Source: a virus. From it: 46,868 bases of DNA. The notes beneath the pieces were generated by a model. That model ran no database searches. It had not been told where the DNA came from and saw nothing but the letters and a program-made list of their open reading frames with translations. The translations under genes and the position numbers were made by a program. The stretch covers positions 1 to 46,868 of the IMG/VR virus record IMGVR_UViG_3300037502_000554; one strand, 5' to 3'. Below, one piece after another: positions 1,319 to 37,632 of this stretch; the first letter of the stretch is position 1, and each line of letters starts with the position of its first letter.

Positions 1319-2737
1319 ATGTTTCTAGGTAGAGATGGATTTGTTTGGTGGATTGGAATTGTAGAAGATGTTGAAGACCCGTTACTGCTAGGCAGAGCGA
1401 AGGTTCGTATCTTTGGTTATCATCCAAAGTACGTCAACCAATCTACAACAACAGGTGATGTAAACAATCTAGTGCCTACGGCAGATTTGCCGTGGGCTAC
1501 TGTCGTTATGCCTCCGAATCTGCCCAACTTCTATGGTCGATTGAGACTAGGCGAATGGGTTCTAGGTTTCTTTCTAGATGGCGTAGAAGCACAAGAGCCT
1601 GCGATTCTAGGATACATTCCTGGCTTGAATACAGGTGGTGGAGAAAACTTTGGCAAGTATTCAATCACAACAAAATCGTTTGATGAACAACACAAAGCAA
1701 AACCGGACGATCCAAGCCAATACACGTTCACGACACCTGGTGGGCAGTATCTAAGATTCTCTGACAAAGCGGAAGTCAGAGAGTCGTTGTTCTATAACCA
1801 AGGCAATTTTTATGTGCAGTTGTACGATGCAAACGGAACAAAGACGTTCACGATTATGCATCCGTCACAAGCGTATTATCAGATCGACAATACAGGAAGA
1901 ACAGTACTCACAACTGGCGGAACAATCGGTGAAGGCGCATCACAGAAACTAGATTCAAGCGGTAAAGACATTATCGTAGCAGGACCGGGCGGTCAGTACA
2001 GTCTAACAAATGAATTGAATCGTATCATCACGGCGTTGTATCCACCGCCACCGCCGCCACGCAGAAGAGGTGGTTGTTTTACCGGTGAAACTCTGGTAAC
2101 AATGTGGGACGGTACGAAGAAACGAATCGATGAAGTTCAAGTTGGTGATCTAGTTCAGACTGGCGTATACTCAAAGCCAGGCAAAGTTCTATTCATTGAA
2201 GAACTAAGAGACACGATGATGTGGAAAGAGTTATATTCTCCATCAGGAATGCACGAACCTTTCGCAACGCCAAACCATTTGCTATTCGTGAATAGAGAAT
2301 GGGTTGCGCTACACACCGACTTGTATGATTGGATGCCTAAGACTAATCCAGTAAAGAATCCTATCACACGACCAACGAAAGGTGATCCGGTTTACAATCT
2401 ATGGCTAGAAGGCGGTGACGGTACTTACTTTGTAAACGGCTACTTGACGCACACTATACTTTATGATGGAGGCTTTTTGCGTCTTGCATGGCAGAAAGGT
2501 TATCTGACACACCAAGAAGTCATGGGCTTGATGTTTGAATTCACCGTTCATGGTGGTAAACTAACATACGGTTCTTATCTAATCAACAAGATGATCGGCG
2601 TTATCGATCAAAAGCACTGGATTAAGTTGATTGCGTACATCATGAAACGTGAAAAAGAGTATTTGCCTAGAAAAGGCATCATTGCTCTAATGAAAATATC
2701 AGCAACCGTAATGAGATTGATTAACAGGAGAAAATAA
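1319..2737 (+). CDS. 5: gp5-like baseplate spike fused to a Hint (self-processing) domain
   Basis: A 472-residue protein in three parts. Residues 1 to about 120 (GRDGFVWWIGIVEDVEDP...LGRAKVRIFGYHP...LPWATVVMPP...LRLGEWVLGFFLDG) match the gp5/VgrG-type OB-fold that docks on the hub. Residues 121-240 are beta-rich. After a run of six prolines (242-247) and RRRGG comes a Hint domain: Cys253 in CFTGETLVTMWDG, a TPNH block at 317-320 and VNGYLTHT ending with His378-Thr379. This is the Cys / TxxH / terminal-His layout of inteins and hedgehog-type domains, but Asn after the last His is replaced by Thr, so full splicing is unlikely while N-terminal cleavage at Gly252-Cys253 remains possible. A 93-residue basic and hydrophobic tail follows. 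The lysozyme domain of T4 gp5 is absent. An AAGGA ribosome-binding site lies at 1310-1314. Confidence 0.8.
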   Translation: MFLGRDGFVWWIGIVEDVEDPLLLGRAKVRIFGYHPKYVNQSTTTGDVNNLVPTADLPWATVVMPPNLPNFYGRLRLGEWVLGFFLDGVEAQEPAILGYIPGLNTGGGENFGKYSITTKSFDEQHKAKPDDPSQYTFTTPGGQYLRFSDKAEVRESLFYNQGNFYVQLYDANGTKTFTIMHPSQAYYQIDNTGRTVLTTGGTIGEGASQKLDSSGKDIIVAGPGGQYSLTNELNRIITALYPPPPPPRRRGGCFTGETLVTMWDGTKKRIDEVQVGDLVQTGVYSKPGKVLFIEELRDTMMWKELYSPSGMHEPFATPNHLLFVNREWVALHTDLYDWMPKTNPVKNPITRPTKGDPVYNLWLEGGDGTYFVNGYLTHTILYDGGFLRLAWQKGYLTHQEVMGLMFEFTVHGGKLTYGSYLINKMIGVIDQKHWIKLIAYIMKREKEYLPRKGIIALMKISATVMRLINRRK

Positions 2738-3185: not shown

Positions 3186-3566
3186 ATGAGCGATTTTTTC
3201 AAAGACTTACCACTCAATCTGACACCTAATCCTGTGACTGGAGACGTTCCAATCGCAAAGAATGAGTCTGCGGTAAAGAAATCTCTGATTAACTTGATTC
3301 GAACACCGAAAGGTTCGAAGCCTTTTAATCCGGATTTTGGTTCAACAGTCTTTGAATATCTCTTCATGCCTGCCGATCAGCAGACTGAACTTGATTTGAA
3401 CGAAGAATTAGCCGACACAATTAAAAAGTATGAGCCTAGAGTGACAGTTATTGCCATCGAATCTAAGATTGATGAAAATAGCGGCATTGAAGTTAATGTG
3501 GAGTACTATGTACAAAATTCTACGCAACTTCAGACACTAACAACCAACATTACAAGAACAAGTTAA
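3186..3566 (+). CDS. 25: Baseplate wedge subunit gp25
   Basis: A 126-residue protein with the gp25/lysozyme-related wedge pattern: KNESAVKKSLINLIRTPKG at about residues 26-44, then KPFNPDFGSTVFEYLFMP, and a C-terminal beta portion (EPRVTVIAIES...EVNVEYYV). T4 gp25 is 132 residues. The family joins gp6 and gp53 in the wedge core and helps start sheath assembly at the baseplate. It is followed after one base by the gp6 gene, the usual order in this phage group. Despite the family's 'lysozyme' label, I see no catalytic pair to support an enzymatic role. Confidence 0.93.
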   Translation: MSDFFKDLPLNLTPNPVTGDVPIAKNESAVKKSLINLIRTPKGSKPFNPDFGSTVFEYLFMPADQQTELDLNEELADTIKKYEPRVTVIAIESKIDENSGIEVNVEYYVQNSTQLQTLTTNITRTS

Positions 3567-3567
3567 A

Positions 3568-5400
3568 ATGGCTACACCTACAAATTTAAGGCTAGACGGG
3601 CTTAGTTTCGAACAGATTCGTGAAAACTTCAGAACCTATCTGAAAGCGCAAGATCAGTTTCGTGACTATAACTTCGAATCGTCAGGTATCAGTACGCTAG
3701 TTGACATTCTAACGTACAACACATATTACAATGCGTTCTATCAGAACATGATTGCAACAGAAACTTTTTTGTCTACAGCACAAAGAAGAAATTCGGCAGT
3801 CAATATTGCCAAAGCACTTAACTATACACCACGTTCAGTCACATCCGCAAAAATTATCGGAGACATTGCCGTTAGCGTTGTTGGTTCTCCTGCCGCTATT
3901 ACACTTCCGAAGTACACGAAGTTTAAGGCAGTATTCAACGGCGAAACTTATTACTTTCTAACGCAAGAAGCAATTACAATTTTTAGAAGTGCCGGTGGTA
4001 CCTACACACTAGATGATGTTGAATTGATCGAAGGCTCTTTCGTCAGCGAAAGATACATTAAAGATATCAATGACGCTGATCAGCGTTTCATTATTAGCAA
4101 CGCAACAGCAGACACATCGACTCTGGTTGTTAGAGTACAGAATTCCGTTTCAGATAGCACGGTTCGTGTTTTTAATTTGACGGACAACATTGTCAGTTTA
4201 ACTTCTACAACAACCGCATACTTCATAGAAGAAGTTGAAGACGGTAAGTATCAAGTCACATTCGGTGATGGTGTCATTGGTACAGCATTGACGGATGGCA
4301 ACGTAGTGTATCTTGAATACATTGTGTCCTCTGGCACAGCGGCTAATGGTGTTAAGACTTTAGAGTTTGCATCAACTGTAGCAAACGTAACGAATATCAC
4401 ATTCACCGCTGGCGGTACTGAGAGTCAATCGTTTGGTGGTCAAGAAAGAGAAACACTAGAGCGAATTAAGTTTGCCGCACCTAAGTCTTATGCCGCACAA
4501 AATCGTGCAGTTACAACTGAAGACTACGAAGCAATTCTATTGAACGAACCTAACGTGGGTTCCGTCATCGTTTGGGGTGGTGAAGACAACGACCCACCAG
4601 CATATGGTAAAGTTTTTATCGCAGTTCGCCCACTGATTGGTACTGCGCTAACTGCAACTGAGAAAAAGAATCTTATCGATACAGTTTTGAAACCAAAGAA
4701 AGTTTTGACTGTAGCAACAGAAATTGTCGATCCAGAGTACATCAACATTATAATTGTTGCTAATGTTAAGTATGATCCTGATCAGACAATTGAAACCGAA
4801 GCAAGCATCAAGTCGAAAGTTTTGAACACCATTACAAATTATAACGACACAGACTTGAATCAATTCTCAAAGTATTTCAGACAGTCAAGACTAACACGTT
4901 TGATTGATACATCAGATCGTGCAGTTCTAAGCACAAGCGTAACTGTTAAGATGGAAAAAGAAGTTGACGTTCAGTTGAATGCGGCTGCTAAGTATACAAT
5001 CAACTTTTCAAATCCTATTAATCCAGTAACTAATGGACGCCCTGCAACACATGCATACGGCGTAGGTTCTCAAGTCACATCAAACGAATTCAGTTATGGT
5101 GGCTTTGACAAATGCTTTCTAGATGATAACAACGGCATCATTCGTATCTACCGAGTAAGCGGAACACAAAACTTGGGTGTATCTCAAAACGTGGGTACAA
5201 TTAACTACTCCACTGGCGCAATTGTATTGACAGACTTCAAACCAACAGCATTTGCTGATGGTGGCGTGACTTTGCGTGTGACAGCAGTTCCAGCAGATAC
5301 GGATATTCTTCCATTGAGAGGACAAATTGTCAACATTCGTGACGCAGATATCACGATCAACATGATCAACGATAAACTAATCAGTCTAGTAAAAAGATAA
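3568..5400 (+). CDS. 6: Baseplate wedge subunit gp6
   Basis: A 610-residue protein. The N-terminus (LDGLSFEQIRENFRTYLKAQ, then FESSGISTLVDILTYNTYYNAFYQNM) is characteristic of T4 gp6 and baseplate J-like proteins. The central region is beta-rich, with YQVTFGDGVIGTAL and a GGTESQSFGGQERETLERIKFAAPKSYAAQNRAVTTEDY-type block (split here at 'ERETLERIKF' and 'AAQNRAVTTEDYEA') seen across baseplate J proteins. T4 gp6 is 660 residues. In T4, gp6 dimers link neighbouring wedges into the iris ring of the baseplate. It is followed after six bases by the gp7-like gene. Confidence 0.93.
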   Translation: MATPTNLRLDGLSFEQIRENFRTYLKAQDQFRDYNFESSGISTLVDILTYNTYYNAFYQNMIATETFLSTAQRRNSAVNIAKALNYTPRSVTSAKIIGDIAVSVVGSPAAITLPKYTKFKAVFNGETYYFLTQEAITIFRSAGGTYTLDDVELIEGSFVSERYIKDINDADQRFIISNATADTSTLVVRVQNSVSDSTVRVFNLTDNIVSLTSTTTAYFIEEVEDGKYQVTFGDGVIGTALTDGNVVYLEYIVSSGTAANGVKTLEFASTVANVTNITFTAGGTESQSFGGQERETLERIKFAAPKSYAAQNRAVTTEDYEAILLNEPNVGSVIVWGGEDNDPPAYGKVFIAVRPLIGTALTATEKKNLIDTVLKPKKVLTVATEIVDPEYINIIIVANVKYDPDQTIETEASIKSKVLNTITNYNDTDLNQFSKYFRQSRLTRLIDTSDRAVLSTSVTVKMEKEVDVQLNAAAKYTINFSNPINPVTNGRPATHAYGVGSQVTSNEFSYGGFDKCFLDDNNGIIRIYRVSGTQNLGVSQNVGTINYSTGAIVLTDFKPTAFADGGVTLRVTAVPADTDILPLRGQIVNIRDADITINMINDKLISLVKR

Positions 5401-10587: not shown

Positions 10588-13500
10588 ATGTCGAATCCTG
10601 GCGGAATAAATCTTAATGTAAGCCCGTACTTTGATGATTATGATGAGGATAAGAAGTTTGTAAGAGTTCTCTACCGTCCTGGGCGTGCAGTCCAGGCTAG
10701 AGAACTCAGCCAAGCCCAAACTTATCAGCAGAAACAAATCGAAAGATTTGCGGGTTACTTCTTTAAGCAAGGTGCTCTTATCGATGGATGCGAAACATCC
10801 CTTGATTTGAGAATGGATTACGTCAAACTTCAATCAACCTTTTCGGGTACTGAAGTTGACCTAGCCGACTTTGAAGGAGTAGAAATTGTCGGTGGTACGA
10901 CAGGCATTCGTGCGTATGTTGGATTGGTGACTGATGTTGAAGGTAATGATCCTAAGACATTGTACATCAACTATCTTTCATCTGGCGCATTAGTTCTAAC
11001 GGTCAATGCCGCTTCTAGTTTGATGACTGTTGGCAACAACGTAAATATTGTTGCCAACAGTATCAATTATACTGCAACACTACAAGCATTTTGGCAAGAC
11101 CCAATCACTAGCACATATAAGATTGCGGTTACCGGTTCTGGTACTGTACCTTATATCACAGTTGACGATCCTCCAGTAACAGCAAATACTATCGCATCCG
11201 ATGGTAGCACAGTTACAATGAACGTGACTGCATATGACGATCAACGTGAAACAAAGACATTTGCAAACTCAGAGTTGATTTTCACCAAGACATATGCTGG
11301 TAGATCATACGCAAACACCGCATCGACAAACGCAGTTCGCTATGTTGTTGATGAAGGACTTGCAACTGAAAGAGTATTCACAAAAGGTTCAAAAGTAACA
11401 ATCGGTGATGGTACCGTTTACATTTCAGAACACTTTGTAAAGAATACAACACAGTCTATTATTCTAGACAAATATAGCAACGAACCTTCATACAAGGTTG
11501 GTTTGGTGCCATCAAAAACATTCATCGATTCTATTGAAGATACTTCACTAGTTGATAACGCAGCCGGTACGCCTAACTTCCAAGCGCCTGGTGCAGATCG
11601 ACTAAAGATCGATACAGTTCTTACCAAGATTGCATTGGGCGAAAGCACAGACGAAACTGAATTCGTTTCTCTCATCGAAGTGCAAGACGGCGTTCTAAAG
11701 AAACGCAAGACAAAAGAACTTGAAGGCAAGATTGAAGAAGCAATCGCAAAACGCACATACGAAGAATCTGGAGACTATACAGTTTCCGATCCAAAGGTTT
11801 CTATTCGTGAACACTTAAATCAAGGCGACAACAACGGACGCTATAGTGTTAACGAAGGCGGCAACAACGAATTGTTGCTTGTCGAAGTTGATCCATTTGT
11901 TTCATACGTTCAAGGTTTTAGAAGCGAACTTCTAGCACGAAGCGGCGTAAATCTACGCAAAGGCTTGGACACACAATACGTTGAACAAGTACAGACTCAG
12001 TTGAGTTTTGGTAGTTCCGTATACATCAAAGAAGTTGTCGGTGCATGGGACTTTATGGAAAGTACCATTGTTGATTTGTATAACACCGCACAACAAGCAA
12101 TCAGCAACACATCATTTAGTTCTACCTCAGTAGCCGGCTCTAAGATCGGTGAAGCAAGAATTAAATCAGTTGAGTATATTAGCGGTGTGCCAGGAACAGC
12201 AACCGCAGTTTACAATCTATACTTGTACAACATCACAATGAACAGCGGACAGTTGTTCGAAGATGTTCGTTCAGTTTATGACTCAGCATCACCATCAAGA
12301 TTTGCTGACATTGTACTAGACACTCTAGGTCGTGCAGTACTCAAAGAAACTGCATACGACAAGATGATTTGGAAACTACCATACGATGGTATTAAAACAA
12401 TTCGTGATGATTTCAATAACGTAGAAACTGGATATGAATTCCGTAAAGAATTCACAGTTACTTTCACATCAGGTGTTGCGACAATTTCAACTACCGATGT
12501 TACTGAAACATTCTCTGGTACTGGAGCATTGACAGAGATTCAAAAGAATCGTAACTACATTGTCATTCCAACTGCTACAGCAAACACAGCCGCTTTGTCT
12601 GGTACTGTTAGTGTAACAGCAGGCACTAAAGCAGTCACTGGTGTTTCTACCGCATTCTTGTCAGGCTTTAATTCTGGTGATGTAATTCGTATTGGTTCGC
12701 AAGATGTTATCATCGATACCATTACCAACAATACATCACTAACGCTAAAGAACAATCACACAGCAGGCGCATCAGGCGCAGCCTACTACAAAGTATTGCC
12801 AGCAGGTCTACCAGTTGGCTTGGGTGGTGTTGGTTCTACAAATGCATCAAGAAGCGTTACCGTCACAACACCAACATCTATTCAGATTGACCTGAAAGAA
12901 AACGCTACGTTCAGCGCAAAAGTTGTTGCGACAATGAACCGTGCTAATGCTAGAGAAAAAGCAAAGATTCTAAATTATCAGCAACAGACTACAATCAATG
13001 CAAACACGCATCCAAATGGACTAGCAGGTCCATACAGTCTTGGCTACGCTGATGGTTATCAGTTACACGCAATTTACCAGTCATCGGGCTTTGGTGTCAC
13101 ACCATCAACAAGCAATACCAATGTGACGGCAAACTACACATTCGATAATGGGCAACGTGATAACACTTACGAACATGCAACGATTACTCCTAAGGTTGGC
13201 GTAGTACCAACCGGACAACTCCTTGTTGTCTATGATTATTTCTCTCACGATACTACACAAGGCGTTGGATATGCGTCTATTAACTCTTATCCAATCAACG
13301 ACAGCGCAACTTCAAACACGACAATCAATACCGTTGATGTGCCAGTATACACAAGCACAAGAACTGGTACTGTATTCTCATTGAAAGATTGCGTTGACTT
13401 TAGATTGATTAAGACTGCTAATACTGCCGCAACTAATCCAATCGATGTTGGTACATACCAGGTGCCTACTGGTGGGCTGCACATCCCAACACCATCATCA

Positions 13501-16500
13501 AACTTCACGGCAGACTTGATTTACTACAAAGGTAGAATTGCAAGACTGTTCGTTAACAGCAATGGCGACTTGGGTATCAACGATGGTTCGCCAGGTAACC
13601 CAACAGCGTTCCCACCACCACAGATTCCTGACACACTTGAATTAGCCGAGTTTAGCGTTCCGCCATATCCATCAAGACCTTCTGATGTTGCGATTACTTC
13701 ATTTAAGAATCGTAGATTCACGATGAAGGACATTGGTAAGATTCAAGAACGTGTCAATAAACTAGAATACTATACAGCATTGAACTTGCTTGAAAGAGAA
13801 GCAAGAGATAAAGTCATCATCGATGATGAAGGCTTGGATCGTTTCAAGAACGGTCTTCTAGTTGACCCATTCACAGGGCACAATGTCGCAGACGTTCTAT
13901 CAGATTACTACAGAGCGGCTATCGACAGACAAGAAAAATATGTAACGTCATATTCTAATAACGATCTTCAAGTTGGTCTGAGTTACACCAGCACTGGTTC
14001 TTCAGGCGTCACAATTACCACAGGTAAAAAGTTGATGCTTGCATACACAGAATCAACTTTTGCAGATCAGCCATACGCATCGACAGGTCTAAATCTTGCA
14101 CAAGATTTGACATACACATGGGTCGGCGATATGGAAGTATTGCCAGCAACAGACAACTGGCTGAACACAACCCGTGATCCAAGCAAGGACTTCGTTGTTG
14201 ACTTGACAGGTCAAGCAGACAACTGGAAGAAACTTGCAGACGCATGGAACACAGAAGTTGCTCCGTTGAATCGCCATTGGGTTGGTGTTGACACAAGAAC
14301 ATCTTCAACATTCTCTACTAACGAATTCTGGCGTGCAAATGCATTCCAAACTCCTTGGGGTGATTGGAGACAGCGTGACACAGTTCGCCGTGACGTAGTA
14401 CAGCAGACTCAAGCCGAAGTTCAGCAAAACGCAGTTATTGACATTGCACAGCAAGACGTTAAGCAAGCGGTTGATCGTGTAGCAGATATTTCTATTCCAC
14501 ACATCATGCGCTCAAGAGACTTCATCTTTGAAGCACGAAGCATGAAAGATGGTGCACCAATTTACGCATTCTTTGATGGTGTTGATGTTACTGCTAACTG
14601 TACACAAATCGCATTGGTTGGAAGCACAACCATCGATGACGTTTATGGATTGTTCAACAACGATGGTATTCTTACAACAGACAATACCAAGTATGTGACA
14701 ATGAACAAAAACGATGACGGCTCAATGCGTGTCATCAACAACAAGATTTATGGTAAGTTTAGAGTACCAGCAAACTCATTCTATGTTGGTCAGCGTGAAT
14801 TCAAACTGATCGATGATTCTCAGAATCGTGACAGTTCAGCAACGACATACGCAAAAATGTCTATCTTTGCGCAAGGCTTGTCTATCGTTAAGAGCCAAGA
14901 CGTTCTAAACACTCGCCCATTCAAAGTATCGTTTGACGATCCTAAGGCAAAAGAGACAGTTTCAAGAAGAACAGTTACCTCTGTAAGAGAAGCAGTTGTC
15001 AACACAATTATCTGGGACCCTGTGTCACAGAGTTTCTATGTTGATGACAGTAGCCATCCAGATGGTATCTTCATGACTTCTATCGACTTGTACTTCAAGC
15101 AGAAGTCTAGCAATCCAAACCTTGGTGCTACAGTAGAAATTCGTGAAATGTCAAATGGCTTCCCAACTCGCAAGATCGTTGGTGGTGAAGTTGCACGAAG
15201 AGAAAATTCTCAAATCAACGTAAGCGCAACGGCTGCTACTGCTACAACATTTACGTTTAAGAATCCAGTCTATCTATTGCCAGGTACAGAGTATTGCTTC
15301 ACAGTAAGACCTGATGGTAACTCTACAGACTTTGTGATTTGGACAGCAGAACTTGGACAGATTGACATTACCAACTCTCAAGTTGCAGTCAAGATTGACA
15401 AGCAACCTGCCGCTGGTGTTGTCTTTACTTCTTCTAACGACTTCACATGGAGCGTCAGACAGAATCAAGACATTAAGTTTAAGATGAAGATTGCGCAGTT
15501 CAGCACATCTACCGCTGGCGTTGCAGTTCTACAAAACTTAGGTGTCACAAACAATCTGACATACACTTCGTTGATTCCTAACGTAGAGAACCTGACACTT
15601 TCTAAGACAAATATTTCTTATGAATTACGTCTGGCAGATGCCGCATATCAATTGACAGATTACATTCCAATTAAGAACTTGGAACGTATCATTGAGTCTT
15701 CTTCTAAGCAGATTTCAAATACAACAAACGAAACTGCGCAGAGCATCAAGTCATTGAGTCTTCGCACTACATTGACAACACAGAACAAAGATGTTTCGCC
15801 ATACATTGATTTGCAACGTGTGAACGTAGCATTGTCTAAGAACATTATCAACAATGAAACTTTTGACACTTTGACTGGTACTGTTACATACAGTTCTGGT
15901 AGTAATGTTGTCACAGGTTCTGGTACAGCATTCAGTACTGAAGTCAGCGCAGGCGAATACATTCTCTTTGGTGAGCAGTATCGTCAAGTCACTCAGGTAA
16001 CTAACTCTATTCACATGCTTGTGTCTAGCAACTTTACCACAGCCGGTTCTGGCGTGACTGCATACAGCAAGAACGAAGAGAATCCAACTGGACCATATGC
16101 GTCAGAGACTAGATACATCACACGCAGAGTTGCATTGAACGATGGCTTTGAAGCGTCAGATTTGACAGTATATCTTGACATTAATCGTCCAGCAGGCACT
16201 TCAATCAAAGTCTACTACAAGATTTTGAATGAGAACGATACTGATACGTTCGATAGCAAATTCTACAATGAACTTACTCTGGATGGTACTGAGACATTCT
16301 CTCAGAACATGAACTCATTCGTGGAAGAAAAGTACGTTGTACCAGCGCCAACCAAGACTGGTGGAACTCAGATTCTAAATGGTACCGTAGCAATCACAAG
16401 CGGATCGGCAGACGTTGTTGGTACAGGAACTCGCTTCTTTGAAGAAGTCAAAATCGGCGACACAATCGCAGTCGGCACTTCAAGAATCGAAAGAGTTGTT

Positions 16501-16725
16501 GCAACAATTTCCAACAACAATTTCTTGACAGTTTCTTCAAACTTCTCTACGACAGCATCTGGACAAGACATTTACACCGTGCTAAATAATGTAGTTGGAT
16601 ACACTACTCCAGACGGCAGAAACTACAACGGATTCAAGTACTTTGCCGTGAAGATTGTATTCTTATCTGAAAATATTGCGTATGTACCAAAAGTTAAGAA
16701 CCTTCGTGTGATTGCACTAGCATAA
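10588..16725 (+). CDS. Giant DUF4815-type virion structural protein (2045 aa)
   Basis: The N-terminus (NVSPYFDDYDEDKKFVRVLY, then RPGRAVQARELSQAQTYQQK) matches what I remember of DUF4815, a family found in large phage virion proteins. The rest is mostly beta, with a helical region near 1030-1080 (FTMKDIGKIQERVNKLEYYTALNLLEREARDK, cited in part) and a C-terminal section of repeated modules. Three copies of a 65-residue unit beginning (S/T/N)GTV occur at about 671-740, 1762-1828 and 1930-1998. By position it replaces gp9/gp10/gp11 of T4, so it probably forms a peripheral baseplate or fibre-attachment structure; that role is inferred. I see no late-promoter box before it, so it probably reads through from gp8. 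Confidence 0.75.
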   Translation: MSNPGGINLNVSPYFDDYDEDKKFVRVLYRPGRAVQARELSQAQTYQQKQIERFAGYFFKQGALIDGCETSLDLRMDYVKLQSTFSGTEVDLADFEGVEIVGGTTGIRAYVGLVTDVEGNDPKTLYINYLSSGALVLTVNAASSLMTVGNNVNIVANSINYTATLQAFWQDPITSTYKIAVTGSGTVPYITVDDPPVTANTIASDGSTVTMNVTAYDDQRETKTFANSELIFTKTYAGRSYANTASTNAVRYVVDEGLATERVFTKGSKVTIGDGTVYISEHFVKNTTQSIILDKYSNEPSYKVGLVPSKTFIDSIEDTSLVDNAAGTPNFQAPGADRLKIDTVLTKIALGESTDETEFVSLIEVQDGVLKKRKTKELEGKIEEAIAKRTYEESGDYTVSDPKVSIREHLNQGDNNGRYSVNEGGNNELLLVEVDPFVSYVQGFRSELLARSGVNLRKGLDTQYVEQVQTQLSFGSSVYIKEVVGAWDFMESTIVDLYNTAQQAISNTSFSSTSVAGSKIGEARIKSVEYISGVPGTATAVYNLYLYNITMNSGQLFEDVRSVYDSASPSRFADIVLDTLGRAVLKETAYDKMIWKLPYDGIKTIRDDFNNVETGYEFRKEFTVTFTSGVATISTTDVTETFSGTGALTEIQKNRNYIVIPTATANTAALSGTVSVTAGTKAVTGVSTAFLSGFNSGDVIRIGSQDVIIDTITNNTSLTLKNNHTAGASGAAYYKVLPAGLPVGLGGVGSTNASRSVTVTTPTSIQIDLKENATFSAKVVATMNRANAREKAKILNYQQQTTINANTHPNGLAGPYSLGYADGYQLHAIYQSSGFGVTPSTSNTNVTANYTFDNGQRDNTYEHATITPKVGVVPTGQLLVVYDYFSHDTTQGVGYASINSYPINDSATSNTTINTVDVPVYTSTRTGTVFSLKDCVDFRLIKTANTAATNPIDVGTYQVPTGGLHIPTPSSNFTADLIYYKGRIARLFVNSNGDLGINDGSPGNPTAFPPPQIPDTLELAEFSVPPYPSRPSDVAITSFKNRRFTMKDIGKIQERVNKLEYYTALNLLEREARDKVIIDDEGLDRFKNGLLVDPFTGHNVADVLSDYYRAAIDRQEKYVTSYSNNDLQVGLSYTSTGSSGVTITTGKKLMLAYTESTFADQPYASTGLNLAQDLTYTWVGDMEVLPATDNWLNTTRDPSKDFVVDLTGQADNWKKLADAWNTEVAPLNRHWVGVDTRTSSTFSTNEFWRANAFQTPWGDWRQRDTVRRDVVQQTQAEVQQNAVIDIAQQDVKQAVDRVADISIPHIMRSRDFIFEARSMKDGAPIYAFFDGVDVTANCTQIALVGSTTIDDVYGLFNNDGILTTDNTKYVTMNKNDDGSMRVINNKIYGKFRVPANSFYVGQREFKLIDDSQNRDSSATTYAKMSIFAQGLSIVKSQDVLNTRPFKVSFDDPKAKETVSRRTVTSVREAVVNTIIWDPVSQSFYVDDSSHPDGIFMTSIDLYFKQKSSNPNLGATVEIREMSNGFPTRKIVGGEVARRENSQINVSATAATATTFTFKNPVYLLPGTEYCFTVRPDGNSTDFVIWTAELGQIDITNSQVAVKIDKQPAAGVVFTSSNDFTWSVRQNQDIKFKMKIAQFSTSTAGVAVLQNLGVTNNLTYTSLIPNVENLTLSKTNISYELRLADAAYQLTDYIPIKNLERIIESSSKQISNTTNETAQSIKSLSLRTTLTTQNKDVSPYIDLQRVNVALSKNIINNETFDTLTGTVTYSSGSNVVTGSGTAFSTEVSAGEYILFGEQYRQVTQVTNSIHMLVSSNFTTAGSGVTAYSKNEENPTGPYASETRYITRRVALNDGFEASDLTVYLDINRPAGTSIKVYYKILNENDTDTFDSKFYNELTLDGTETFSQNMNSFVEEKYVVPAPTKTGGTQILNGTVAITSGSADVVGTGTRFFEEVKIGDTIAVGTSRIERVVATISNNNFLTVSSNFSTTASGQDIYTVLNNVVGYTTPDGRNYNGFKYFAVKIVFLSENIAYVPKVKNLRVIALA

Positions 16726-33458: not shown

Positions 33459-35126
33459 ATGGCACTAAAACTATTCGGCTTTAAGATCGGTAAAGACGAT
33501 CCAGCACAGGATCAATTAAAGTCATTTGTTCCTCCATCCGATGAGGAACAAGCGGTATCCGTTGTAGGTGGCGGAGTCTATGGTACATATGTTGACCTTG
33601 AAGGTCAAATTCGTACCGATGCAGACTTGATCAAGAAATACCGTGAAATGGCACTTCAATCAGAGTGTGATTCTGCTATTGACGATATTGTTAACGAAGC
33701 AATCGTCTACGAAGAAGGCACTTATCCAGTTAGCATCGTACTGGACAATCTGAAACAACCAGAAGCAATCAAGAAAAAAGTTCGTGATGAATTTGAACAC
33801 ATCATGAAACTTCTTGACTTCAACAATCAAGGCTACGATATTTTCCGTAGATGGTACATTGATGGTAAGTTGTACTATCATATGTTGATTGATGAGAAGC
33901 AACCTCGCCAAGGCTTGAAAGAGGTTCGCTACATTGATCCACGCAAGATTCGTAAAGTCAGAGAACTTCCAAAATCACCACCTGGCTTGAATCCAACAGC
34001 ACAGCAAGCCCAGTATCTAAAGCCTATTGAGTACTTCGTATTCTCAGATAGAGGATTCGTGCGTGACACAAATCAAGGCTTAAAAATCTCCGTAGACTCA
34101 ATCTGCTATGTTCACTCAGGCATTACCGACAAAGATGGTAAAGCCATTGTGTCTTATTTGCACAAAGCAATTAAGCCATTGAATCAGTTGCGCATGTTGG
34201 AAGATGCAACAGTCATCTATCGTATCAGTAGAGCACCAGAACGTAGAATTTTCTATATCGATGTGGGTAACTTGCCTAAGATGAAGGCAGAACAATACCT
34301 TCGTGAGATTATGCAAAAGTACAAGAATAAGATTGTGTACGATGCATCAACTGGTGAAATCCGTGATGACCGCAGATTTCAAACAATGCTTGAAGACTTC
34401 TGGTTACCTCGCCGTGAAGGTGGTAAAGGTACAGAGATTACCACACTTGCTGGCGGTCAGAACCTAGGCGAGATTGAAGACGTATTGTACTTTCAGAAAA
34501 AACTATTTAAGTCACTCAATGTTCCCATCTCACGTTTAGAAGCAGACAACGGATTCTCACTCGGTCGTGCATCAGAGATTACCCGTGATGAAGTTAAGTT
34601 TGCTAAATTCGTTTCACGCCTACGTTTGAGATTCAGTCACTTATTTGACAAACTGCTTGAAACACAACTTCTATTGAAAGGTGTTTGCACCCGTTCAGAG
34701 TGGGCGCAGATGAAAGAAGAAATCAGTTACGACTTCGTATCTGATGCACACTTCTCAGAACTTAAAGATGTTGAAATCATGAAAGAACGTCTTGGTATCC
34801 TAGAAGTTATTGATCCATATGTTGGCAAATATTTCTCCAAAGATTATATTCGCCGCAAAGTGCTTCGACAGACTGAAGAAGAAATCAAAGAACTTGACAA
34901 AGAGATGGAAGAAGAAAATGCTGACATTAGTGATCATGAAATTAAATCCATCGCCATTGCACAAGCCTCTCAGCCTCAGGTAGCAGAACCTGCACCACAA
35001 GAGACTGCACCAGAACCTGTGGTGAAAGAATCTGTAGATGACACAGATCAAAAAGAGTTGGCTAAGTCAATGACAAAGTTTTTTGATACTCTAGTCGAAG
35101 AGGCAAAAGGTGACAGTAAAAAATAA
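33459..35126 (+). CDS. 20: Portal protein gp20
   Basis: A 555-residue protein (T4 gp20: 524). Diagnostic stretches are [66 protein letters not shown], and [20 protein letters not shown] followed by [20 protein letters not shown]. The dodecameric portal sits at one capsid vertex, starts head assembly and is the channel for packaging. The last 60 residues are an acidic, Pro/Gln-rich tail ([20 protein letters not shown]). Its 3' end overlaps the collagen-like gene by 17 bases. Ribosome-binding sequence GAAGAGAGA lies before the ATG. Confidence 0.96.
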
Positions 35127-37632
35127 TACGTTACTTGACGATCCTCTGACTGACGCTCTGAAGATTGCTACAGCAATTGCTTATACAAAAAAGCAAGTAG
35201 ACAAACTCAAGGATGAAATTTCTGAGTTAAGAGAAGAAAAGAGAAATCAAAAGTTACTAGTCGAATATGTTCAAGGTCCTCCTGGCGCAAAAGGCGAAGT
35301 AGGACCTAGAGGCTTTATTGGTCCGCAGGGACCGGAGGGCGACATTGGTCCGCAAGGTCCTAAAGGCGATACAGGCGAAAAAGGTGATCGTGGTGAACCT
35401 GGTTTGCCAGGACCAATTGGTCTCCGTGGTCCACAAGGCGAACAAGGACCAAAAGGCGACAAGGGTGACACAGGCGATAAAGGCGACAAAGGAGAAGTTG
35501 GTGATGTAGGTCCTCAAGGTCCAAAAGGTGACAAAGGAGACAAGGGGGACAAAGGTGAAGACGGTAAGAACGGTCTGGACGGAAGAGATGGAGCGCAAGG
35601 CGCAATGGGTCCCGCTGGACCTGCTGGCGCAAAAGGAGCCCAAGGTCTTCAAGGAGAGCGAGGTCCTAAAGGTGAAACAGGAAGAGTTGGACCAGCAGGC
35701 GTACAGGGACCACCCGGTCCTAAAGGCGAACCCGGACCACAAGGTCTTCAAGGCTTACCAGGTAAAGATGGTAAAGACGGAGACGTAAAGCCTATTGAGC
35801 AAAAGTTCACAACGTACACGAAGAAACTTGATGAAAACTTTGCTGAATATCGCAACAGACTAAACGCACTAATATCTAAATCACTAGCCAACGATGCATG
35901 GAAAGCAACTGGCTCTGGTGAAGTCAATCTACGATATCTTGATGACGTAGATCGTAGTAGTATTCAAAACGGCTACGTCTTATCATACAACTCAACCACA
36001 CAAAAATTTACATTCGTTGAACAAACAGGCGGTGGTGGAGGTGGTTCTTCATCCATACCAATTGCAATATTAGATGAAGGTTCAACTGTAACTGCCAATG
36101 TAGTCAGTATCAACTTTGTTGGTGCTGGCGTTACTGTAGCAAATACAGGATCAAATACGGTTAGTGTCACAATTCCAAGTACATCATTTGTACCAACAGA
36201 TGTAACGCAAGTATTTGCAGAAATTAAAAACGCAGAATCTTTTACCATCACAAAAGGACAAGCGGTTTATCTTTATCAAGCAACTGGCAATAAAGCGTCT
36301 GTAAAACTTGCCATCAATACCGGCGATCCAACTTCAGCAAAAACTCTCGGTCTTGTCTATAGTGACAGCATCACGCCTGGCGGTACAGGCATCGTTATCA
36401 CGCAAGGCGTTATTACCGGCGTTGACACAAAAGACTATCTTGAAGGCGATACACTTTATCTTGCAAACACGGCAGGCAATTGGACCGCAACTAAACCATA
36501 CGCACCAAATCATCTAGTTTATCTTGGTGTTGTCGAACGTGCAAATCAAGGGCAAGGACAAATTTATGTGCGCCCTCAAAATGGTTATGAATTACACGAA
36601 ATTCATGACGTAAACATCGATCACAATGTTGCACTTGCAAATGCACATGTCATTGTTTACAACTCAGGTTTAAGTATTTGGGAAAACAGACCAATCTCTT
36701 ACTTGGGTATTGCCACAGAGTCATACGTCAATACTGCAATTTCAAATCTTGTAAGTACAGCGCCAGCATTGCTAGACACGCTAGGTGAACTAGCAGACGC
36801 AATCGGCGATGATGCAAATTTTATTACAACAATTAATAACAAAGTCAATGTTGTATATAACACCGCAAACGCATCATACTCGCAAGCAAACACCGCAACG
36901 ACAAACGCCTCTTCCGCAAACACATTAGCATCTAGTGCTTTTGCGCAAGCGAATACTGCCACAACTAACGCATCTACCGCAAATACGTTTGCTGGCTACG
37001 CACAGTCTACCGCTGATGCAGCCTATAGTCAAGCCAATACTGCTACTACAAATGCATCCACGGCTAACACATTAGCGTCTAGCGCATTCAATCAAGCAAA
37101 TACTGCTACAAGTAATGCTTCAACTGCTAACACGTTTGCCAGTTATGCACAAGCAACAGCGGATGCCGCATACACGCAAGCGAACTCAGCATTTTCTCAG
37201 GCTAATACTGCCACCACAAATGCGGCTTCAGCGAACACGTTAGCATCTAGTGCTTTTGCACAAGCAAACACAGCAACAACAAATGCCGCAACTGCACAAG
37301 CGACTGCAAATCAAGCGTGGGTAACAGCAAATAATAAAAACTATACCATTAGCACGATTGCGGCAAACACAGCCGTTACATCATCGTACAATGGACATGT
37401 TGTGGTATGCAACAGCGCATCTGCAATCTATATAAGTGTACCAGACTCTACAGGATTAGATGATGGCTTTAACTTCAAAGTCTACTCTATCAATTCTGGT
37501 TCAGTTTATGTTACATGTAATAGCGTTTCCGATTCTATTGCTACAGGCACTCTACGCAGGTCAGAAGTTTTGCTTAATCGAAATGCTGAAATCGTGAAGT
37601 TAGCGAACACGATCTTCGCTATTTTTGAATAA
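35110..37632 (+). CDS. Collagen-like fibre protein in the head operon (840 aa)
   Basis: The reading frame opens at a GTG that overlaps the portal gene by 17 bases; no upstream ATG fits. Residues 22-48 form a probable coiled coil ([20 protein letters not shown]). Residues 56-225 are 56 uninterrupted Gly-X-Y triplets, rich in GPQ, GPK, GDK and GEK. Next come a beta region with a poly-Gly/Ser linker (310-320), a domain with [20 protein letters not shown] and [20 protein letters not shown] typical of phage fibres, then about 145 residues of ANTATTNA-type repeats, and a C-terminal knob of about 100 residues. The plan is that of a trimeric fibre: coiled coil, collagen triple helix, stalk and head. 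Its place between portal and prohead core suggests a head- or neck-attached fibre, though a tail fibre expressed from here is equally possible. Confidence 0.8.
35275..35784 (+). repeat. Collagen-like Gly-X-Y repeat, 56 triplets
   Basis: An uninterrupted coding repeat with Gly at every third position. The X and Y positions favour Pro, Asp, Glu, Lys and Gln, giving charged GDK and GEK clusters that stabilise bacterial collagens lacking hydroxyproline. Because Gly codons vary (GGT, GGC, GGA) the DNA repeat is degenerate. Confidence 0.95.
36883..37320 (+). repeat. ANTA/TNAS repeats in the fibre stalk
   Basis: About 145 residues of Ala/Asn/Thr/Ser repeats built from (S/A)[20 protein letters not shown] and YAQ(S/A)TADAAY units, with a periodicity of about 7 and 11 residues. 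Such runs form thin helical trimeric stalks in phage fibres. DNA copies differ mainly at third positions. Confidence 0.8.

Follow-up and report, generated by a model that had tools for sequence, protein, structure and literature searches.

The baseplate spike of an uncultured T4-like phage ends in a cassette of two parts, a genuine Hint domain followed by a conserved helical C-terminal domain (CTD). Since it turns up in related aquatic viruses on further tail proteins, the cassette has the look of a mobile tag that detaches or modifies itself, not of a part of the spike itself. The spike gene was analyzed within a 46,868-base fragment from an IMG/VR record, called the window below. Its features are:

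1319-2737, plus strand: gp5-like baseplate spike gene, an open reading frame of 472 amino acids with matches to phrog_694, phrog_1922 and phrog_430
1322-1669, plus strand: gp5/VgrG-type OB domain, residues 2-117 (phrog_694; T4 gp5 chains in the PDB)
2042-2074, plus strand: Pro6-Arg3-Gly2 linker PPPPPPRRRGG, residues 242-252, with the scissile-type Gly252 (from the sequence)
2075-2455, plus strand: Hint domain, residues 253-379 (PF01079, BIL2 profile match, fold match, conservation)
2198-2200, plus strand: Glu294, invariant in 13 of 13 members and placed by MAFFT in the putative position of Hedgehog D46
2456-2734, plus strand: CTD, residues 380-472 (conserved; five predicted helices, net charge +10)

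The window protein carries the OB domain characteristic of the T4 gp5 spike. Its match to phrog_694 (baseplate hub/tail lysozyme, E=2.9e-29) is confined to residues 2-117, and T4 gp5 chains in the PDB match at E about 2e-9, with T4 gp5 aligned over residues 8-67. Wedge genes follow downstream, one gp25-like (3186-3566) and one gp6-like (3568-5400), with matches to phrog_261 and phrog_219.

An initial annotation had read a Hint core in this gene. Its reading frame, Cys253, TPNH, His378, Thr379 and linker were all placed correctly, and the profile search and structure prediction that it had proposed as checks both returned Hint. PF01079, the Hedgehog-type Hint module, was the top family match and scored 31 bits on the window domain against a cut-off of 29.7. 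Both PF01079 and PF14623 were matched by 13/13 family members at E<=0.1, PT-HINT by only three of them. When the profile of the 13-member family was compared with PDB sequences, the best match was Tetrahymena BIL2 (positions 3-134 of 226, E=8e-7). The AlphaFold model (pLDDT 84.6, pTM 0.77) led to the same protein in a fold search of the PDB (E=1.4e-8); Vint, inteins and Hedgehog (1at0/6tyy) came next. Together with this fold and a curated family score, the domain has a position-1 cysteine and a TxxH motif: Cys1 is Cys253 (2075-2077), in CFTGETLV directly after the linker, and TPNH occupies residues 317-320 (2267-2278). Residues 253-379 are thus a genuine Hint domain. An assembly chimera was ruled out because the same gp5-Hint-CTD fusion is present in four other metagenome contigs (L001, L002, L043 and L047; 66-67% identity) from four IMG data sets. 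An intein remnant was also rejected, given the missing Asn, the C-terminal position and the presence of a CTD belonging to the cassette.

Conservation was assessed in 13 diverse Hint-CTD sequences, with identities as low as 32%. All of them share Cys1, Phe2, T-x-N-H, one Glu (Hint position 42) and VYNLW as invariant residues, and in 11/13 Cys1 is preceded by Gly. Block G of the window reads YLTHT, with His378 (2450-2452), Thr379 (2453-2455) at the Asn position and Ile as the following residue. Across the family, the block-G His is kept in five members, and the Asn position is occupied by Ser or Thr in all 13, by Asn in none. Splicing is excluded by sequence because of this missing Asn, as the initial annotation had expected from the Thr; the splicing-intein combination of a C-terminal Asn at block G:7 and a downstream Cys/Ser/Thr was not found. 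The core had further been described as complete-looking. For Cys253 and TPNH this is correct; His378, however, is not an essential part, since most of the family lacks the block-G His, and the conserved CTD had been omitted. In the block nomenclature for Hint and intein step residues (PMC4031507), the 13 sequences have kept the N-S acyl shift residues of step 1 and lost those of Asn cyclization. The presence of Cys1 and TxNH in every member makes it likely that N-terminal acyl-shift (thioester) chemistry is under selection. Within gp5 the cassette evolves slowest and is under strong purifying selection: dN between the window and its relatives is 0.18 for the Hint domain, 0.28 for the CTD and 0.53-0.58 for the remaining gp5, with dS saturated.

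In Hedgehog proteins, D46 acts as the general base. A MAFFT alignment with human and fly Hedgehog places the invariant Glu294 in the D46 column and pairs the GT..(I/V)N......(S/T) end with GTILINRVLASC; the residue of Tetrahymena BIL2 aligned with Glu294 is not acidic. Full-length homology to Hedgehog was not supported by hhalign, which covers only the first 33 positions (Prob 91, E=1.2e-6).

The CTD comprises 93 residues, its helices being taken from the AlphaFold prediction. Its charge is net positive in 12/13 members and its last helix is hydrophobic or amphipathic, in the window protein as in the family. No match was found in Pfam, NCBIfam or PHROGs, nor to toxin families, and homology to the Hedgehog SRR could not be shown, there being no sequence match. 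Instead of the variable C-terminal toxin domain of polymorphic toxins, one conserved family was observed.

The cassette is carried by gp5 in five contigs, window included. The three distinct gp5-borne cassettes placed in the tree group as a single clade (support 100/99), so gp5 probably acquired the cassette a single time. In seven distinct contigs and one near-copy (L144 to L151), Hint and CTD are found at the C-terminus of a DUF4815/phrog_358 protein, an assignment based on scored family matches for L144, L147, L148, L149 and L151 and made by eye for L145 and L146. Three further contigs (L152-L154) bear the cassette on other or incomplete proteins. In G001, G003, G004 and G005, the Hint is found in an open frame equal in length to the one with the phrog_358-type match; the DUF4815 gene of the window (10588-16725) is without the cassette. 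Hint and CTD are therefore one cassette that is mobile between virion proteins and indifferent to its carrier. Exactly one copy was found in 7/7 cassette-bearing records, all of them fragments, including one of 192 kb. One copy per record together with carrier switching suggests a function needed once per virion and not a feature of a single gene. No additional carriers emerged from scans made after L144-L154, and no relatives were found in GTDB genomes. Among isolated phages there was no complete Hint-CTD match, only partial Hints in Mycobacterium phages and Lak phages.

In T4 gp5, the lysozyme lies between the OB domain and the C-terminal beta-helix, and the same order was found in L163. The Hint domain had been assigned to the place of this lysozyme; it is in fact C-terminal, behind the Pro/Arg/Gly linker. 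No lysozyme or Gp5_trimer_C match to window gp5 was obtained with Pfam or PHROGs; in L163, which served as positive control, the lysozyme was above and the trimer domain below cut-off. In G001, with its cassette on the DUF4815 protein, gp5 is longer and contains the OB domain, a GH19-type stretch (23.9 bits against a cut-off of 25.5) and a weak C-terminal trimer-domain match. As the gp5 of this phage retains a weak chitinase-type match while the cassette is located elsewhere, the cassette does not replace the lysozyme; it hangs from the C-terminal end of gp5. A Hint motif is missing from many related gp5 proteins, whose length would not accommodate a T4-type lysozyme either; the close relatives without Hint have about 190-330 residues. 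In place of the Pro6-Arg3-Gly2 linker, L001, L002 and L043 contain poly-Gly. The gp5 of L015 and L084-L088 has a similar Pro/Gly linker, then a different all-helical domain starting KIICTKLY, and no Hint. A C-terminal helical domain thus need not be detached.

Taken together, we consider it rather probable that the mobile cassette forms a thioester at its Gly-Cys junction and then either leaves the baseplate protein or attaches something to it. With Thr317 and His320 as activators, Cys253 would attack Gly252 and convert the peptide bond between the two residues into a thioester, as the invariant residues suggest. The reaction would stop short of splicing because the block-G Asn is absent. An outside nucleophile (water, a thiol or some substrate that the CTD brings in) would then resolve the thioester, leaving gp5 to end in ...PPPPPPRRRGG and the Hint-CTD piece free to depart. 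Simple detachment of this piece during assembly or delivery appears to be the likeliest outcome, though we hold it tentatively; Hedgehog-style retention of an adduct by the virion protein comes second and is a minor prospect.

Several observations speak against a cassette that detaches. Linkers of poly-Gly or Pro fit a permanently attached flexible tag, the gp5 proteins of L015 and L084-L088 carry their helical domain with Hint absent, and in L152 and L153 Cys1 is preceded by Val and Ser, respectively. In addition, an invariant Asn stands where block F has Asp, and the known cassette contigs number only about 18, every record being a fragment. Some of this would suit a Hint fold without any chemistry, serving tail proteins as a stable terminal tag for structure or adhesion; the loss of block G and the close gp5 relatives that manage without Hint point in the same direction. 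A mere tag, however, has no need of Cys1, and the step-1 Cys, Thr and His are invariant in the 13 members although other active-site positions drift. We regard a purely structural role as improbable. The initial annotation had suggested a spike that matures by Hint chemistry. T4 gp5 itself undergoes cleavage in maturation, and Hint chemistry might take the place of this cleavage in yielding a working needle. The gp5-borne cassettes are indeed conserved and form one clade, and a real non-splicing Hint that keeps Cys1 and TxNH agrees with the proposed chemistry. Its restriction to a puncturing device was not supported: the same cassette sits on non-spike proteins (DUF4815/phrog_358), and the carrier G001 retains a longer gp5 with a GH19-type stretch. 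Spike-specific maturation is accordingly the most doubtful of the explanations considered.

Adduct transfer as in Hedgehog would require the CTD to recruit a lipid, sugar or amine nucleophile, so that the spike keeps a modified C-terminal glycine, for example as a membrane anchor. The leading position of PF01079 among the family matches is consistent with this, as is the layout of N-domain, Gly-Cys, Hint and helical tail, which equals that of Hog with its Hint and SRR/ARR (PMC2362128). The MAFFT placement of Glu294 on D46, with a non-acidic residue in BIL2, may point the same way, but this pairing comes from a sequence alignment. Moreover, the Hedgehog likeness by hhalign ends after 33 positions, BIL2 is the better full-length match, and homology of the CTD to any SRR could not be shown. 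Such transfer thus seems unlikely, and slightly more so a complete prokaryotic-virus counterpart of Hedgehog, in which a nucleophile chosen by the CTD would be put on the tail-tip glycine to give a covalent, e.g. lipid-like, virion tip. By analogy with polymorphic toxins, where HINT directly precedes the C-terminal domain (PMC3482391), the basic CTD might also be cargo that is carried on the spike tip into the host envelope and freed there. Its net positive charge in 12/13 members and its hydrophobic or amphipathic last helix would agree with an injected effector, and L123 has an independent VHN-type Hint upstream of another C-terminal helical domain. Polymorphic-toxin tips are variable, however, and the CTD is a single conserved family to which toxin families give no match; injection is also not obvious for the DUF4815 carriers of the baseplate region. 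We judge an effector quite unlikely.

The predicted thioester-forming cassette shares features with several known systems. Type-B BILs are without block G and undergo cleavage only (PMC4031507). They share with the phage domain the Hint fold, Cys1, TxxH, the lack of an intein-like block G and a predicted cleavage uncoupled from splicing, and the block-G counts (His 5/13, Asn 0/13) would correspond to the sequence half of the type-B definition. In contrast to them, the phage Hint is fused to a dedicated helical CTD and occurs in virion proteins; unlike Tetrahymena BIL2, which was solved as a C1A-N143A construct, it does not end in Asn. Hedgehog proteins carry out the first N-S acyl shift only (PMC7664689). 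The Hog part resembles the cassette in its Gly-Cys-Phe junction, TxxH, missing Asn, acidic residue in the D46 column and helical extension after Hint, but aligns significantly over the first 33 residues only, and the cassette belongs to a prokaryotic virus. As with PT-HINT, a Hint lies just ahead of the C-terminal domain of a delivery-type protein; here, however, a contractile phage carries the Hint on its VgrG-family spike, and the tip domain lacks variability. Likeness to T4 gp5 extends to the OB domain and the position in the baseplate gene cluster, whereas the window protein ends in the cassette and no lysozyme was found in it.

Uncultured Caudovirales proteins in BFVD/UniProt are annotated as 'Hint domain containing protein', with no described function or spike context. 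Since phage Hint domains are thus present in databases, the kind is already known. According to Zhang et al. 2012, HINT accompanies several secretion systems but never the T6SS or PVC contractile systems, the argument being that injection renders HINT autoprocessing unnecessary (PMC3482391). The literature searched contained no description of a baseplate spike with a Hint, nor, as far as these searches show, has a conserved Hint-CTD cassette been described that switches carriers between a VgrG-family spike and another virion protein. Its presence on spike and baseplate-region proteins of contractile-tailed phages is a candidate counterexample to the 2012 statement (PMC3482391). The cassette could also provide a compact domain, evolved for protein ends, that forms thioesters.

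Besides L084:4031-4504, 18 rows of alignment A3 contain the KIICTKLYELG all-helical domain; its carriers in large aquatic phages are gp5, DUF4815-type and fibre-like proteins. By eye it resembles the CTD (GYL[ST]..., YGSY/YYGY), but hhalign gave Prob <1% and homology of the two was not shown. It matches no family, and a PDB fold search gave nothing at E<=0.001. One copy was present in 7/8 records, never together with the Hint cassette among 15 records checked, and the only isolate match is gene 028 of Synechococcus phage SynMITS9220M01. In L123 (2812-3792), one protein contains a VHN-type Hint just upstream of a poly-Gly linker and a KIICT domain, an independent pairing. In L138-L142, lambda J-like tail tip proteins also begin with VHN-ending Hints, two in tandem in L138.

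Further genes of the window were noted. A Zeta_toxin-family protein (131-1078; 29.3 bits, cut-off 22.3) adjoins the baseplate genes, and L002 also has one upstream of gp5. A staphylococcal-nuclease homologue (PF00565, 28228-28656) lies directly ahead of a terminase-like gene, and positions 35110-37632 encode an 840-amino-acid protein, part of it alanine-rich and coiled, that also has a long collagen-like stretch of Gly-X-Y.
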